Positions 1,249 to 8,535 of a stretch of DNA of 39,408 nucleotides are shown one piece after another. A model generated the notes under the pieces. The model saw only the letters and a list, made by a program, of their open reading frames with translations, had not been told where the DNA came from and made no database searches. The stretch comes from Deltaproteobacteria bacterium (GTDB lineage Bacteria > Desulfobacterota > Desulfobulbia > Desulfobulbales > Desulfobulbaceae): positions 1-39,408 of the forward strand of contig JAJRQC010000091.1 in assembly GCA_024280455.1 (NCBI GenBank), written 5' to 3'. The position numbers and the translations under genes are program-made. Each line of letters starts with the position of its first letter. Within the stretch, counting starts at the first letter, position 1.

Positions 1249-3426
1249 TCATGTCTGCAGGGCATTTAAAAGCTCCTCCGGTTCACCGGCCAGTACCTGA
1301 CCTGTTCCCGTCAGGTACACCATGCGATCGGCCAGCAGGACGTCGGACTTGCGGTCGGTGACAAAAAGAATGGTCTTGCTGCCCCGTGCCTTTTGCAGAT
1401 ATTCCCGAAAGAGAATTCCCGTTACCTCATTGATTACTGCAGAGGGGAATTCATCAAAAAGCATGATCGGCGAGTCCCGCAGGTAGCCTCGGGCCAGGTT
1501 GAGCTGGAAGGAGAACACCGAGGACAGCTGGTCGGATCGATAATCACCGATAAAGGTATTAAGGCCCTTGGGCAGCAGCTGAATATCTTCCAGTGCCCCT
1601 GCCCAGGTCAGGGCGTCCATGAGCTCTCTGTCAGTGGCATCCGGTTTGACCATCCGCAGATTTTTTTCAATGGTTCCATGGAAGAGCTCTATGACCTGAG
1701 GGACATAGGAGATGTTTTTTCGGAGCTCAATTGGGTCACGCTGTCTGATGTCGAGACCGTCGATCAGGATGGAACCCATCTGGGGAATATAGAGGCCGTT
1801 GGTCAGTTTGAGCATTGAGGTCTTGCCCGCCCCTGATCCTCCGGCGATGGCAATGATTTCCCCTTTTTTGACCTGCAGGTTCATTCCGGAAATAACCGGT
1901 CCGCGTTCGCCGGTATACCTGAGGCCGACACCGGTGAAGGTGATGTTTCCTTTGAGGCGAAACAGGGCCGGGTCAACTGCGGTGAGTTTTCCCTCCGGCG
2001 GGGTGCGTACCAGTTTGTGGACTTGACCGATACTTCGAAAGATAAAACGTATACGAATCAGAGAGTTGACAATGGCCTGCATGGGGGTGAGGACCCGCCA
2101 GACCAGCATCATGCAGGCGATCAATGCGCCGGTGGTAATCCGGCCCTGCCAGACCAGCCAGATTCCGGTGGTCAGGGTGCTGATCCCGGCAATGACCGAC
2201 AGGCCGTAAGCCAGGGCTTCGATGAGTGAGCTCAGAAAGGCGGAGGAAAAACTGGTCATGGCGGCCTGGCCGGACAACTCATGAAAACGCTGCCACCAGG
2301 TATCCCCCAGGCCATGGGCCTTGAGTGCCCTGATTTTTTTTATGGTTTCCACCAGCAGGGCCTGTTTTTTTACTCCTGCCACCGCCCCCTCCTCGGTGCG
2401 GGCCTGGATTTTCGGCAGCATGACAAGGGCCAGGGTCAGGTAGCAGAGCGCCAGAATCAGGGGAATCAGGGCCAGCGGCCCGCCGATGATGGCTATGGTG
2501 ATGAGGAAAATCACGGTAAACGGCAGCTCCAGAACCGCTATTCCGGTCGGGCCGGAAAAGAATTCACGGATGGAGTCAAAATCTTTGATCCGGGCCACCT
2601 GGGATGGAATGGAGGAGCCTTCAATCAGCCGCGGCGGCAGAAAGAGCAGGCGCTCGAAGATAAGCTGGCTGGTGATGGCATCCACTCTAACCCCGAAAAA
2701 GGCCAGGCTCCTTGCCCGCAGGTAGCGCAGCATGACTTCCATGGTCATGGCCAGCAGGGCGCCGAAAACAAGATATTGCAGGGTTTCAACCGAGCGGCTG
2801 CCGATAACCTTGTCATAGACGGTCATGACAAACAGCGATGAGGCCAGGGCCAGGATATTGATCAGGAAGCTGACCAGAAAGGCCTGCAGAAAGATGGCGT
2901 CAAACCGTTTGATGAGCTGCCGAAACCATTGCAGCGGTTTTTCATCGGCATTGGAGCGCACGGTATCTCCGGCAATGGTTTCTCTGGTCTGGGGTATGAA
3001 ACGATATAAGGTGCCGCGGCAATCGATGATTTCCCGTATCGGCTTGATGGTATCATCGGCCGGATCATATATCTCGCACCCGGTTCCTTCCGCGTCAGGC
3101 AGCAGGATGTAGGGGATATCATCCTTGCAGACAAAGAGGCAGGGGCTTAGACGAGGGTCTATATTGTGGAGATTGAGCGTGGTCGAGCGGGTATGGAACC
3201 CAAGGTTGATCATGCTGTTGACCAGATCAACCCGGTCAAGCTCGCCCGGCATATGGGGCAGGGCCTCACAGATTTGCTTTGCCTGTCCGCGCCAGCCCAG
3301 AGCGGGGAGCAGGAAGGTCAGGGCGCGGGCATGGGGAGAAACCCTGTCCAGCCCCAGCCAGCCGGCCGGTTCAAGGATCTTGCGGAAGTGCAGAGCCTTT
3401 TCCGTATACTGTGCTGTGCCGCTCAT
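1249..3426 (-). CDS. Type I secretion ABC transporter with inactive C39-like N-domain and degenerate ATPase
   Basis: Inner-membrane exporter subunit of 725 residues. Residues about 20-145 resemble a C39-peptidase-like domain without a recognisable catalytic Cys motif, as in LapB/HlyB-type exporters. A six-helix ABC membrane domain follows (about 175-460), then an ATPase domain (about 490-720). Walker A is intact (GGSGAGKT), the Q-loop Gln is present (NISYVPQ), and Walker B with its Glu is present (PIMLFDEFP). The LSGGQ signature is replaced by LSSVFSFQ, and the H-loop His is replaced by Asp (LFVTDRKSD). The start ATG overlaps the stop of the upstream ABC gene by 4 bp, which implies translational coupling and probably a heterodimer. 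Family assignment is secure. Whether the ATPase works alone is doubtful, given the two missing motifs. Confidence 0.93.
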   Translation of the reverse strand: MSGTAQYTEKALHFRKILEPAGWLGLDRVSPHARALTFLLPALGWRGQAKQICEALPHMPGELDRVDLVNSMINLGFHTRSTTLNLHNIDPRLSPCLFVCKDDIPYILLPDAEGTGCEIYDPADDTIKPIREIIDCRGTLYRFIPQTRETIAGDTVRSNADEKPLQWFRQLIKRFDAIFLQAFLVSFLINILALASSLFVMTVYDKVIGSRSVETLQYLVFGALLAMTMEVMLRYLRARSLAFFGVRVDAITSQLIFERLLFLPPRLIEGSSIPSQVARIKDFDSIREFFSGPTGIAVLELPFTVIFLITIAIIGGPLALIPLILALCYLTLALVMLPKIQARTEEGAVAGVKKQALLVETIKKIRALKAHGLGDTWWQRFHELSGQAAMTSFSSAFLSSLIEALAYGLSVIAGISTLTTGIWLVWQGRITTGALIACMMLVWRVLTPMQAIVNSLIRIRFIFRSIGQVHKLVRTPPEGKLTAVDPALFRLKGNITFTGVGLRYTGERGPVISGMNLQVKKGEIIAIAGGSGAGKTSMLKLTNGLYIPQMGSILIDGLDIRQRDPIELRKNISYVPQVIELFHGTIEKNLRMVKPDATDRELMDALTWAGALEDIQLLPKGLNTFIGDYRSDQLSSVFSFQLNLARGYLRDSPIMLFDEFPSAVINEVTGILFREYLQKARGSKTILFVTDRKSDVLLADRMVYLTGTGQVLAGEPEELLNALQT

Positions 3427-5120
3427 ATTCTGAACTCCCGGAAGGGGAGGATGTGATGGATTTTTGAATCAGATGGAGCCGTTTCCTGGAGCCGTCCGTG
3501 GTGAAGAAAATATTCCCGGTCGGCAAGGCGGAGGATATTGCGGTCATCGGAGATGATAATCATGATCGTCCGGGGCTTGAGGCGGCCAAGAACACCGAAC
3601 ATCAAATTGTAGCCGTGTTTGTCCAGGCCGCGGTCGGCATTGTCAAAAAGGATGACCCTTGGTTTGTTTGCCAGAACCCGGGCGATAGCGATGCGTTGTT
3701 TGAGGCCGGGCGGGATGGGGTCGGTTACGTTGTCGGTGAGCTGGGTTTCGTATCCTTCCGGCAGGATGGCGACGGCATCGTCAATGCCGAGGAGCCGGGC
3801 CACGACCATGGCATCCTCTTCATTGGCGGAGTTGAAGAAGGTCAGGTTCTCCCGGATGGTTCCGTAAAAAATAGTTCCTTTCTCCGGCAGATAGCCGACG
3901 TGCGTACGGAGGATGGCCGGATTGACCTGGTGTGGCTGGGCCCCGTCGACAAACACTTCTCCTTTTGATGGTTTGATCAGGCCGGTGATCAGGTGGAGGA
4001 TGGTTGTTTTTCCGGAACCGGCACTGCCGGATATGGCCAGGGAGTCCCCGGGATGCAGTTCCAGGTCCAGATCCCGAAGCAGCAGCGGGCTATCCTCTTC
4101 ATAGCGGAAAGATACACTATTTAAAACAATATGGCCGGTCGGCTTTTTTATCTGTTTGGTTTCGCTGTATGACGTTGTCGGCAGCTTGAAGATGTCCTGA
4201 AGCTCTTTGCGGTCAATAAAAAAGGATTGAAACCGGGTCCAGAGCGACAGGGCCCGCTGGACCGGTTGCATGATTCTGCCGGAAAGCAAAACACAGGCGG
4301 CCAGGCCGCCGGTTCCCATGTCGCCGTGGATAACCTTGAGCGCGCCGACGGCAACCACGGCAACCGTCATCACCTGGGAGAAAAGCATACCGCAGTTGAG
4401 GGCGATATTATTGGTCAGGGCCACCTGGTAGTGGGCAAGGGAGATCCGGGACTGGAGGCGGTCATTTCTGCGCAGGAAAAATTTTTCCAGACCAAGGCCT
4501 TTGAGAGAGTGGATACCCGACAGAGTTTCAATAATAAAATTATAACGGATTTTGGTGCTGAAATCCTGTTCGGTGACCTGCAGGCGCAGTTTATAACCGA
4601 CAAACCAGGCCAACAGGCTGAAGGCAAAAAAGAGCCCCAGGGGCACATAAACAAGGTTGCCGGCAATGTACCAGATCAGAAAGAGAAATATAAAGATGAA
4701 GGGAAGGTCGACAATGGTGAGCAGGGCCTGGCCGGAATAAAAGCAGCGCAGACGGCTGATGGAGGCCATTTTCTGCAGATACGTTCCCGAGCCCTGCTCT
4801 TCAAAACGCTGCATGGGAGACTGAAGAATATGTTCCATGGCCCGGCAGGCGGTTTTATGCTCAAAGACGGCTCCGGACCAGGATGTCAGGTAAGATCGGG
4901 CGATACGCAGGAGCATTTCCAGAATCACCGCCGTGATAACTCCGAAGACAAGCAGGGTAAGGGTCCCGTAACCGTGGCTGGGCAGGATGCGGTCATAGGT
5001 CTGCAGCATCATGATCGGCATGGCCAGTGCCAGCAGGTTGACGACCAGCGATGAGAGAACCAGGTGGATAAGGTTTACCCGAAATTCATGGTCCATGGTC
5101 GTCTGGGGTCGGTTCGGCAT
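3423..5120 (-). CDS. Second type I secretion ABC subunit, catalytically degenerate
   Basis: First gene of the secretion operon, 565 residues: an ABC membrane domain (about 10-300) followed directly by an ATPase domain (about 335-550), with no C39-like N-domain. Walker A is intact (SGSAGSGKTT). Almost everything else needed for hydrolysis has changed. The Q-loop reads GYLPEKG (Glu for Gln), the signature reads IPPGLKQ in place of LSGGQ, Walker B reads VILFDNAD with Asn in place of the catalytic Glu, and the H-loop reads IIISDDRN with Asp in place of His. This would be the silent partner of a heterodimeric exporter with the 725-residue protein. No clear Shine-Dalgarno precedes the ATG at 5120; an internal ATG eight codons later is an alternative start. 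Membership in the type I secretion permease/ATPase family is clear; the substrate is unknown. Confidence 0.9.
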   Translation of the reverse strand: MPNRPQTTMDHEFRVNLIHLVLSSLVVNLLALAMPIMMLQTYDRILPSHGYGTLTLLVFGVITAVILEMLLRIARSYLTSWSGAVFEHKTACRAMEHILQSPMQRFEEQGSGTYLQKMASISRLRCFYSGQALLTIVDLPFIFIFLFLIWYIAGNLVYVPLGLFFAFSLLAWFVGYKLRLQVTEQDFSTKIRYNFIIETLSGIHSLKGLGLEKFFLRRNDRLQSRISLAHYQVALTNNIALNCGMLFSQVMTVAVVAVGALKVIHGDMGTGGLAACVLLSGRIMQPVQRALSLWTRFQSFFIDRKELQDIFKLPTTSYSETKQIKKPTGHIVLNSVSFRYEEDSPLLLRDLDLELHPGDSLAISGSAGSGKTTILHLITGLIKPSKGEVFVDGAQPHQVNPAILRTHVGYLPEKGTIFYGTIRENLTFFNSANEEDAMVVARLLGIDDAVAILPEGYETQLTDNVTDPIPPGLKQRIAIARVLANKPRVILFDNADRGLDKHGYNLMFGVLGRLKPRTIMIIISDDRNILRLADREYFLHHGRLQETAPSDSKIHHILPFREFRI

Positions 5121-5237
5121 AAACAGTAGAGTAATTTTTTAGAAAACCGGTCAAAAATCGTAGGATTTAGGTAACTTTTCAATAACTGGTGGCAGAGTGA
5201 GAGAAAAAGTAGGTCGGAGTCTCGTATCTCTCTACCT

Positions 5238-5299
5238 GGGTTGAGTTCTACGAAACCCAACAGCTCCTCGACAAAGTTGGGTTTCGTAGAACTCAACCC
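5238..5299. repeat. Perfect 24-bp inverted repeat with 14-nt loop
   Basis: The left arm 5238-5261 (GGGTTGAGTTCTACGAAACC followed by CAAC) is exactly the reverse complement of the right arm 5276-5299. The wider context, CTACC to the left and AACCTAC to the right, extends the symmetry. The GTTGGGTTTCG...CCCAAC motif resembles dispersed REP/MITE-like repeats found in many bacterial genomes. There is no U-tract on either side, so it is more likely a repeat element than a terminator. The copy number in this genome cannot be seen here. Confidence 0.8.
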
Positions 5300-5843
5300 A
5301 ACCTACACAAAATACCATTACCGCCAATTATTGAGAAGTTACGGATTCGGAAGATAAGTTATACGTATTATATGGAATTTAGAACGTGATGCAAGCTGGA
5401 AGTGTCCAGGAGCTGTTTTTTTCATATTTTGTTGATTGTTCGTGTTTTCCTGAAAACCAGGACATCTGTACCTTCTGCAGGCCGGTTTGTACCGTACCTG
5501 CCCGCATCAACATCGACCCCAATCCTGGTCTTATCAAGGGTAAGTGTGAGTTTTTTTTAAAATTCCGCCTTGATTTTTTCGTTTTCCGTGTGACATAATG
5601 TTTTATGGAACAAGGGATGCTCTTTGTTTTTCATGGTTTTTTCTGCTGCAGTACTGCCTGCCGGCTGCCTGTGGTCGGAGTCGTGAGGGTGTTGCAGGAA
5701 AAGAAACGTAACTGATCACAGGGGTGGTAACTCGTCGGTTTCGTATATATAGTATCTATAAGTGGTCAAAGGGAGCTCCGATCATTTACAAAGAGACAGG
5801 CGGGTGAACTGCGGAATGATTCATGTGCTCTGGTCGGTTTGAA

Positions 5844-6083: not shown

Positions 6084-6854
6084 ATGCGTTGTCCAAAATG
6101 TGGGTATATCTCTTTTGACCATTTAGAGTCCTGTAAAAAATGTAACAAAAACATCAGTGAGGCTTCTGTCGATATTGATGGAACCGTTTTTGCTGTCGCA
6201 GCGCCCGTGTTCCTGGATCTTGAGTATAAGGAGAGTGCTGCGCTGGCGGATGAAAAAGAGGATATTACCATTCTTGAGGAGAGCTCGGGCGATGGGGAAG
6301 AAGTCGTGGACCTGTCGTTTGAAGAGGATGAGGTTGATGGCGAGATCGTCATGGATCTAGGTGACGATGGGGAGTTTGATGATGTCGGGCTGGTTGAGGA
6401 AGTGGATGCTCCGACTCTTGAGCTGGACGCCCTTGAAGAGGTTGCCCCGGAAGATGAGATAACGCTTGATTTTGGTGCCGAAGAAGAAGCAACAGGGACC
6501 GGGGAAGAAGCGGACGATGGCCTGCAGCTTGATTTCGGTGAGATAGATATTTCCGACCTTGCCCCACCCGAGGAAGATGGTGAGGAACTGGTTGCCGAGA
6601 CCTTGACCCTTGATGAGGAGGAGACGTCCAGTGAACCTGCTCTTGCCGGCGGGCCCCTATCTGCTCCGGCATCCGTTGTCGCTCCGGGATCCGGCCTGGA
6701 AGATTTGCAGGTTGAAGATCTTGATCTGGATATTCCGTCGCCCCTGGTCGCCGGGAGTAAAGCCGGGGACAAACTGATGCCGTCTGTAAAAACCGGCACG
6801 GCACTGGATGATTTTGAAATTGATCTGGGCGAGTTGACGTTGGGTGATAAATAG
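6084..6854 (+). CDS. Zinc-ribbon protein with very acidic disordered tail
   Basis: A 256-residue protein of unknown function. It opens with a small zinc ribbon, MRCPKCGY followed by CKKCNK (four Cys, residues 3-6 and 17-20). The rest is rich in Asp, Glu, Gly, Ser and Pro and includes repeated short blocks such as LDFG, LDLD and IDLGEL, so it is predicted to be disordered and strongly negative. There is no signal peptide and no membrane segment. A purine-rich ribosome binding site (AAGGCGG) lies a few bases before the ATG. It is monocistronic, between the REPIN-like element and tRNA-Phe. Such zinc-ribbon plus acidic-tail proteins occur in Desulfobulbales-type genomes, but I know no established role. 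A nucleic-acid or protein binding role is possible; nothing here proves it. Confidence 0.85.
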   Translation: MRCPKCGYISFDHLESCKKCNKNISEASVDIDGTVFAVAAPVFLDLEYKESAALADEKEDITILEESSGDGEEVVDLSFEEDEVDGEIVMDLGDDGEFDDVGLVEEVDAPTLELDALEEVAPEDEITLDFGAEEEATGTGEEADDGLQLDFGEIDISDLAPPEEDGEELVAETLTLDEEETSSEPALAGGPLSAPASVVAPGSGLEDLQVEDLDLDIPSPLVAGSKAGDKLMPSVKTGTALDDFEIDLGELTLGDK

Positions 6855-6916: not shown

Positions 6917-6992
<76 letters not shown>

Positions 6993-7826: not shown

Positions 7827-8535
7827 TTATTGAGCTGGACGGGTGCTGTTTTTCTTGCGTGGTCGCCCTGCCTTGCCAGGAGTTACCCGACGGCCAAGCA
7901 TTTCACTGATCTCCTGTTGAAACCGACTGTTTCCAAGTGCAAAATTCCCACTGGTTGCCTTCCGTATTGCATCAATCTCGCCCGGCTCCAGTTCTCTGCG
8001 AAACAGTTCGCGATACGCATCCTGTCTTTTTGAAGCTGTCCGGCCAAGGGATTGATAAAGAGGGTGGGGGCTCACCAGGTCAAAGCTGTTTCCCTGGCCG
8101 TTAACCTGATAGCTTGACCAGCGATATTCACCGGGATGATCGACTATCCCTGCTCGTACAGGATATAATTCAATATAGCGCCGGCATCTTAAAAGATAGA
8201 CGTCCTGCTGAATAATGGAGGCGCGAAATCTCCCCTCCCGGAGAGTGCCACTGCGTTTATAGGTACGGTTGACGTACTGAACATAACGCTGACCAAGGCG
8301 TTTCATGAGATTTCCGACACTATCGGATTTTTCAGGAGTGAACAGAAGGTGAAACATGATTTGTCATCAAAACAAAGGCATGAACAAGACAGCCTGAACT
8401 ATCGGCATATTCCTGCAGCCACTCAAGATAGAACCTATAATCTTGGTCAGCATAAAAAAAGGCCTGCCGATTATTTCAGCGCTGAACAACATGGAGCGGA
8501 ACAGTGGGCACAATGATTCTGGATCGTCTTGGCAT
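7827..8535 (-). pseudogene. REP-associated tyrosine transposase (RAYT, Y1/IS200-like), two inactivating lesions
   Basis: An HUH-type single-strand transposase of the kind that mobilises REP sequences. The original start is the ATG at 8535-8533 (MPRRSRIIVPTVPLHVVQR). Codon 20 is TGA (8478-8476) where the family has Gly (QRG.NRQ). The frame continues through CLVHAFVLMTNHV. There an extra A within 8352-8354 (plus strand) shifts it: deleting one base restores NHVHLLFTPEKSDSVGNLMK, the family HUH region. The last 176 codons (from 8357) are intact, with YVQYVNRTYKRSGTLREGRF and YIELYPVRAGIV, ending at 7827. Two independent lesions mean it is inactive. It sits beside REP-like arrays (7541-7648, 10149-10200), its likely former substrates. 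Confidence 0.9.

Follow-up and report, generated by a model that had tools for sequence, protein, structure and literature searches.

The window analysed here, a stretch of 39,408 nucleotides from a Desulfobulbaceae genome (Deltaproteobacteria bacterium, assembly GCA_024280455.1, contig JAJRQC010000091.1), contains an operon encoding two unlike ATP-binding cassette (ABC) subunits, which we call A725 and B565 (A and B for the homologues at large), together with an HlyD-type periplasmic adaptor (Table 1). We consider it likely that A725 and B565 form an asymmetric, heterodimeric type I exporter of RTX/cadherin-like adhesins with one working ATP site, at which hydrolysis is altered and probably slow. 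Sequence comparison shows a partnership of the two subunits, an asymmetry between their ATP sites and strong selection.

Each ATP site of an ABC exporter is composed of the Walker A, Walker B, Q-loop and H-loop motifs of one subunit and the signature and D-loop of the other, and the switch His of the H-loop and the Ser of the LSGGQ signature are textbook parts of the motor. When A725 and B565 were aligned to HlyB, with the H-loop positions fixed by the downstream ADR motif, all motif substitutions described in an earlier sequence-only reading of this DNA were reproduced. We further noted a difference that this reading had passed over: the D-loop is intact in B565 and lost in A725, and the two composite sites are therefore unequal. 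For the family as a whole, we assembled 106 subunits of type A and 104 of type B; they come from Desulfobulbaceae, from Azospirillum plasmids and from genome samples centred on Alphaproteobacteria. The site formed by the Walker motifs of A and the signature of B is protected: A retains the Walker A Lys in 105/106 proteins, the Walker B Asp in all 106, the catalytic Glu in 105/106 and the Q-loop Gln in 97/106, and B retains the Gly at the fourth signature position in 102/104 and the D-loop Asp in all 104. The opposite site is dismantled; B keeps the Glu in 58, the Gln in 55 and the His in 22 of its 104 proteins, the D-loop Asp of A is found in 59/106, and all A proteins have a degenerate signature. 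On trees from which the motif columns had been left out, the A residues of the protected site changed zero times (Walker B Asp), once (Glu), once (Walker A Lys) and three times (Gln), and its B residues zero times (D-loop Asp) and once (signature Gly); the residues that B contributes to the dismantled site changed 7 (Walker A Lys), 8 (Glu), 9 (Gln) and 12 times (His). If the core of a site is defined by five residues (Walker A Lys, Walker B Asp and Glu, and the partner's signature Gly and D-loop Asp), the full core is present in 96/100 pairs at the A-Walker/B-signature site versus 28/100 at the other. The claim that both sites had been lost thus holds only in part: in the window neither site is strictly consensus and the switch His is absent from both subunits, but the two sites are far from equivalent. 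The exporter obeys the rule for heterodimeric ABC exporters, by which one site stays good, but its good site is itself modified; as in that class, two unlike subunits appear, from their sequences, to pair, and one composite site is degenerate, but the second site lacks the consensus LSGGQ and His. In three loci (L119, L129 and L133), the Walker A loop of B is degenerate (SDHAPSIEA, ADHSASKGA and AADDVALAV, respectively), and the dismantled site may therefore not bind ATP at all there.

The modification of the protected site is widespread. The signature Ser of B is replaced by Pro in 87/104 proteins and present in 4/104. At the switch position of A, His occurs in 68/106 proteins and has changed six times on the tree, the remainder having Tyr (23), Asp (6), Gln (5), or Glu, Cys, Phe or Asn; Asp and Glu were found there in Desulfobulbaceae-type genomes only. 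Neither subunit has a switch His in 34 of the 100 pairs, that of the window included. The Asp present in both H-loops had been taken as a hint of paired co-evolution. This did not stand, because Asp or Glu is more widely spread in B, where it is found beside a His in A (L110, L114, L131 and L138) or a Tyr in A (18 pairs).

It is very likely that A and B work as one heterodimer, as the sequence-only reading had supposed, because the two are fused into a single protein in 20 loci, by two fusion events on the tree, and because their trees match. A forms one clade, B another, and ordinary single exporters stand apart (support 99-100 each, and 100 for both the A and the B clade), the identity between A and B being only ~25%. 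Their distance matrices are correlated with r = 0.91 over 67 loci; none of 2000 permutations was as high, the largest value being 0.20. The gene order B-A-HlyD is common to the window, related Desulfobulbaceae-type genomes and most loci of the family. At L143-L145, B and A lie in the same frame with one stop codon between them, which possibly indicates readthrough or a recent split.

The nearest matches outside the Desulfobulbaceae-type group are genes on Azospirillum megaplasmids, in which B and A form a single protein of ~1378 residues, with HlyD next to it and a giant Ig-like protein divergently oriented. Genome samples were searched with this fusion as the query (E<=1e-90 in the class of genome G441). 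Matches were obtained in 33/240 genomes of that class, of which 29 carry the pair (incomplete at a contig end in a few cases) and four have a single-type exporter, in 45/200 genomes of its phylum, several with three matches, and at 30 loci from 29/142 genomes in the order of G680. Single-type matches from Alphaproteobacteria (L100-L103) were taken as controls. We infer the taxonomic spread of the family from these samples, which are centred on Alphaproteobacteria. In a sample of 395 Desulfobacterota genomes, the B subunit was found only in the window's genome and in Desulfogranum mediterraneum (G008), three further matches proving to be ordinary single exporters. In both trees the window's group adjoins the small-genome order of G680, and in both groups A carries one extra residue behind its catalytic Glu, an insertion of single origin. 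The A/B exporters constitute a large family of which we found no description in the part of the literature covered, where the two-ABC type I systems described are MARTX and its relatives only.

Could the loss of so many consensus residues simply mean that the operon is decaying and non-functional? We regard this as extremely improbable and reject it. The motif pattern is family-wide, and operons comprising B565, A725 and HlyD orthologues, whole or partial, are present in six related genomes, which include congeners, Desulfogranum mediterraneum (70% identity in A, 72% in B) and a Desulfobacterales metagenome-assembled genome (MAG). Wherever the orthologous A copies reach the motifs, Walker A, the Q-loop and the catalytic Glu are intact, the signature reads LSS.F.F and the switch residue is Asp, save for a Glu in Desulfogranum mediterraneum; the corresponding B copies have Glu for the Q-loop Gln, IPPGLKQR (VPPGLKQR in the MAG), Asn for the catalytic Glu and Asp for His. 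Because identical residues recur in independent assemblies of related genomes, sequencing error is unlikely. The ratio of nonsynonymous to synonymous substitution rates (dN/dS) against the congeners is 0.05-0.09; for the C-terminal third, where most of the nucleotide-binding domain lies, it is 0.04-0.07. The more distant Desulfogranum mediterraneum and MAG copies give 0.08-0.20, with dS near saturation. The recurrence of the substitutions and the purifying selection that the sequence-only reading had proposed to look for are therefore both found, and its argument against random decay is borne out, although the shorter of the intact frames on which it drew, that of B565, measures 1.7 kb and not 1.2 kb.

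How might such an exporter be driven? We propose that the A725/B565 heterodimer would reside in the inner membrane and, with the HlyD adaptor and a TolC-type channel, export giant RTX/cadherin-like adhesins in one step. ATP would be hydrolysed once per cycle, with E659 as the decisive residue, and only at the site composed of Walker A, the Q-loop and Walker B of A and the IPPG signature and D-loop of B, whereas ATP at the second site would be held unhydrolysed and act as a hinge, a role proposed earlier for ATP at a degenerate site (PMC7756269). Because Pro replaces the signature Ser and Asp replaces the switch His at the kept site, hydrolysis there may be slow, or may use a proton path around Glu659 unlike that of HlyB. 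Unusual or very slow hydrolysis at the kept site is probably the best account of these sequences, and several observations weigh against it. In HlyB, the H662A substitution lowers ATPase activity to <0.1% (PMC6222333) and abolishes secretion (PMC5018854), and in HisP both H211D and H211Y leave <2% activity (PMC6222333). Since these mutants are nearly inactive, the kept site may not hydrolyse ATP at all. In most of the systems studied, laboratory mutants that lack this His show hardly any ATPase activity. We found no convincing residue in the sites of the clade that would compensate for the lost His, and a search for the start of an adhesin in the assembly of the window's genome found none, presumably because the contig ends there.

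An exporter that binds ATP and hydrolyses it at neither site, with export powered chiefly by binding, external Ca2+-dependent folding and very rare turnover, or with the pair acting as a gated conduit, would accommodate the dead HlyB and HisP mutants, the 34 pairs without a switch His and the missing Ser of the kept site. We nevertheless consider it unlikely, because a pure binder has no need of the catalytic Glu, which A has retained as faithfully as its Walker A Lys, and because Pdr5 tolerates the loss of its H-loop His with ATPase activity retained (PMC6222333). Still less probable is a standard heterodimeric exporter of normal turnover in which Asp691 serves as the linchpin instead of His: Tyr, Asp, Glu, Gln, Cys and Phe do occur naturally at this position and the core of the kept site is intact, but the same exchanges to Asp and Tyr all but silence HisP, and the signature Ser is gone as well.

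A725/B565 differ in several respects from the systems that they most resemble. TAP1/2, TM287/288, BmrCD, TmrAB and Pdr5 likewise combine one degenerate with one catalytic composite site, and in the degenerate site of Pdr5 Glu and His are replaced by Asn and Tyr, respectively (PMC7756269), but all of them keep a consensus-like catalytic site, whereas the kept A/B site lacks the Ser and, in the window's branch, the His. HlyB, the best solved-structure match, is homodimeric, has consensus motifs throughout and requires H662 for ATPase activity and secretion (PMC6222333, PMC5018854). The single LapB/LssB exporters (TIGR03375) resemble our system in their NCBIfam model, the C39-like domain of A, the HlyD partner and their giant adhesins; unlike it, they are of a homodimeric type with one gene and two consensus sites, and A725 and B565 fall under the cut-off of their family. 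The MARTX exporter RtxB/RtxE of Vibrio and others also employs two ABC subunits and an adaptor for one large substrate, and the two have been suggested to form a heterodimer (PMC3034196, PMC4316617). Its order, however, is rtxBDE (ABC-HlyD-ABC), and, by the available descriptions, RtxB and RtxE are clades inside one type I secretion system group, whereas A and B stand apart from the HlyB-type single exporters in our tree. The A/B pair would thus provide a second two-ABC layout for type I secretion, beside MARTX. In this exporter branch both the switch His (by Tyr, Asp or Glu) and the signature Ser have been replaced at the sole protected site, under purifying selection that is strong in the window's lineage; on the more tentative reading that ATP is hydrolysed there without them, neither residue would be indispensable to the ABC motor. 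The natural His-bearing and His-lacking variants within one clade make the role of the His directly testable, and the naturally fused A/B chains should be handy for structural work.

The assignment of the operon to type I secretion, made already from the sequence alone, was upheld. The best NCBIfam model for A725 and B565 is TIGR03375 (LssB; 459 and 389 bits, respectively), whose curated cut-off of 693 bits neither reaches, and the adjoining adaptor matches TIGR01843 with 293 bits, above its cut-off of 209; a HlyB/LapB-type ABC exporter next to an HlyD adaptor is characteristic of such systems. A725, a LapB/LssB-like type I secretion ABC protein, comprises an N-terminal C39-like domain, a transmembrane domain and a nucleotide-binding domain, and B565 the latter two only; their genes overlap by 4 bp. 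Peptidase-containing exporters (PCATs) have a catalytic Cys in their N-terminal C39 domain; the family scan reported no C39 peptidase family for A725, the catalytic triad not having been aligned residue by residue. HlyB is the closest solved structure for both subunits. A predicted model of A725 aligned over its full length to HlyB and PCAT1; because of its low confidence (predicted local distance difference test, pLDDT, 64), it served for fold likeness only.

Table 1. Exporter genes, nucleotide-binding motifs and candidate substrates (positions in the window unless a locus is named)
Feature	Position	Strand	Basis or remark
A subunit A725 (725 aa)	1249..3426	-	Open reading frame (ORF), NCBIfam and structure matches
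B subunit B565 (565 aa)	3423..5120	-	ORF, NCBIfam and structure match; fused to A in relatives
HlyD-type periplasmic adaptor, 387 aa visible, truncated at contig start	3..1163	-	TIGR01843 match
A Walker A GGSGAGKTS, aa 529-537, intact	1816..1842	-	Lys in 105/106 A proteins
A Q-loop YVPQVI (YVPQ aa 574-577), intact	1690..1707	-	Gln in 97/106
A signature LSSVFSFQ in place of LSGGQ, aa 634-641, degenerate; part of dismantled site	1504..1527	-	
A Walker B, E659 intact, one-residue insertion after Glu, D-loop Asp gone (PSAVIN)	1429..1467	-	Glu in 105/106
A switch position, D691 in place of His	1354..1356	-	His in 68/106 A proteins
B Walker A GSAGSGKTT, aa 365-373, intact	4002..4028	-	
B Q-loop position Glu, YLPEKG aa 410-415	3876..3893	-	
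B signature IPPGLKQR in place of LSGGQRQ, aa 469-476; serves kept site	3693..3716	-	
B Walker B, N494 in place of catalytic Glu; D-loop Asp intact (RGLD), serves kept site	3621..3656	-	
B switch position, D525 in place of His	3546..3548	-	
Candidate substrates with NIHxG[ST] or, in the sister group, DLDGVTE...GSGN	L032:8319-12698, L029:9253-9417, L187:2-4255, L072, L077, L080-L086, L091; L096-L139		

What, then, might be exported? Giant proteins that are poor in Lys and Arg and bear cadherin, Ig, LamG or RTX domains are associated with the operon in relatives; among them, an RTX and cadherin protein at L187 and an Ig/cadherin and LamG protein at L032 are candidate substrates. The exporter gene cluster of Desulfogranum mediterraneum includes an OEP/TolC homologue (PF02321). 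A TolC-type channel and a large, often RTX-bearing substrate near the operon, both usual in type I secretion, are found in relatives; no such channel was seen in the window, which stops at the contig edge. In the congener G001, adhesin and exporter lie on different contigs. In Desulfobulbaceae, HlyD and the adhesin flank a gene for a response regulator with receiver and histidine-kinase-like HATPase domains (L032:6923-7876 and L029:7917-8885), and no orthologue of this regulator was found in the assembly of the window's genome. From the pair loci we collected 57 candidate ORFs, picked by composition and not by function. The motif [NGTA][ILV]HxG[STIV], which had first been spotted in the very sequences used for the count, occurs within the first 170 residues of 10 of the 57, against 0.17 expected from shuffles, and matches twice in the 52,801 residues of their remaining parts; in Desulfobulbaceae it takes the forms GNIHLGT, GNLHYGT and GNLHYGM. 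Nineteen other candidates, all from the sister group, have the motif D[LI]DG[VS]TE...GSGN instead. These N-terminal motifs are candidate export, docking or retention signals. We put forward more tentatively the wider picture of a family in which hydrolysis at a single site proceeds without switch His and signature Ser and in which GNIHxGT or DLDGVTE...GSGN would possibly mark the adhesins for export or docking.

The surroundings of the operon yielded several minor observations. A perfect inverted repeat of 25 bp around a 14-nt loop, unique within the window, lies directly upstream of B565 (5237-5300), and a fragment resembling transposases associated with repetitive extragenic palindromic (REP) elements, of the tyrosine type and scoring under its family cut-off, is found at 7827-8357; because of this fragment, the inverted repeat may be a REP-type element. 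A tRNA-Phe (gaa) gene at 6917-6992 lies near the operon and the transposase-like fragment. Finally, a highly acidic protein with an N-terminal zinc-ribbon-like motif, MRCPKCGYISFDHLE..CKKC, which matched no Pfam family over its cut-off, is encoded at 6084-6854 and at L032:600-1514, and its gene is divergent from the operon both in the window and in Desulfogranum mediterraneum.

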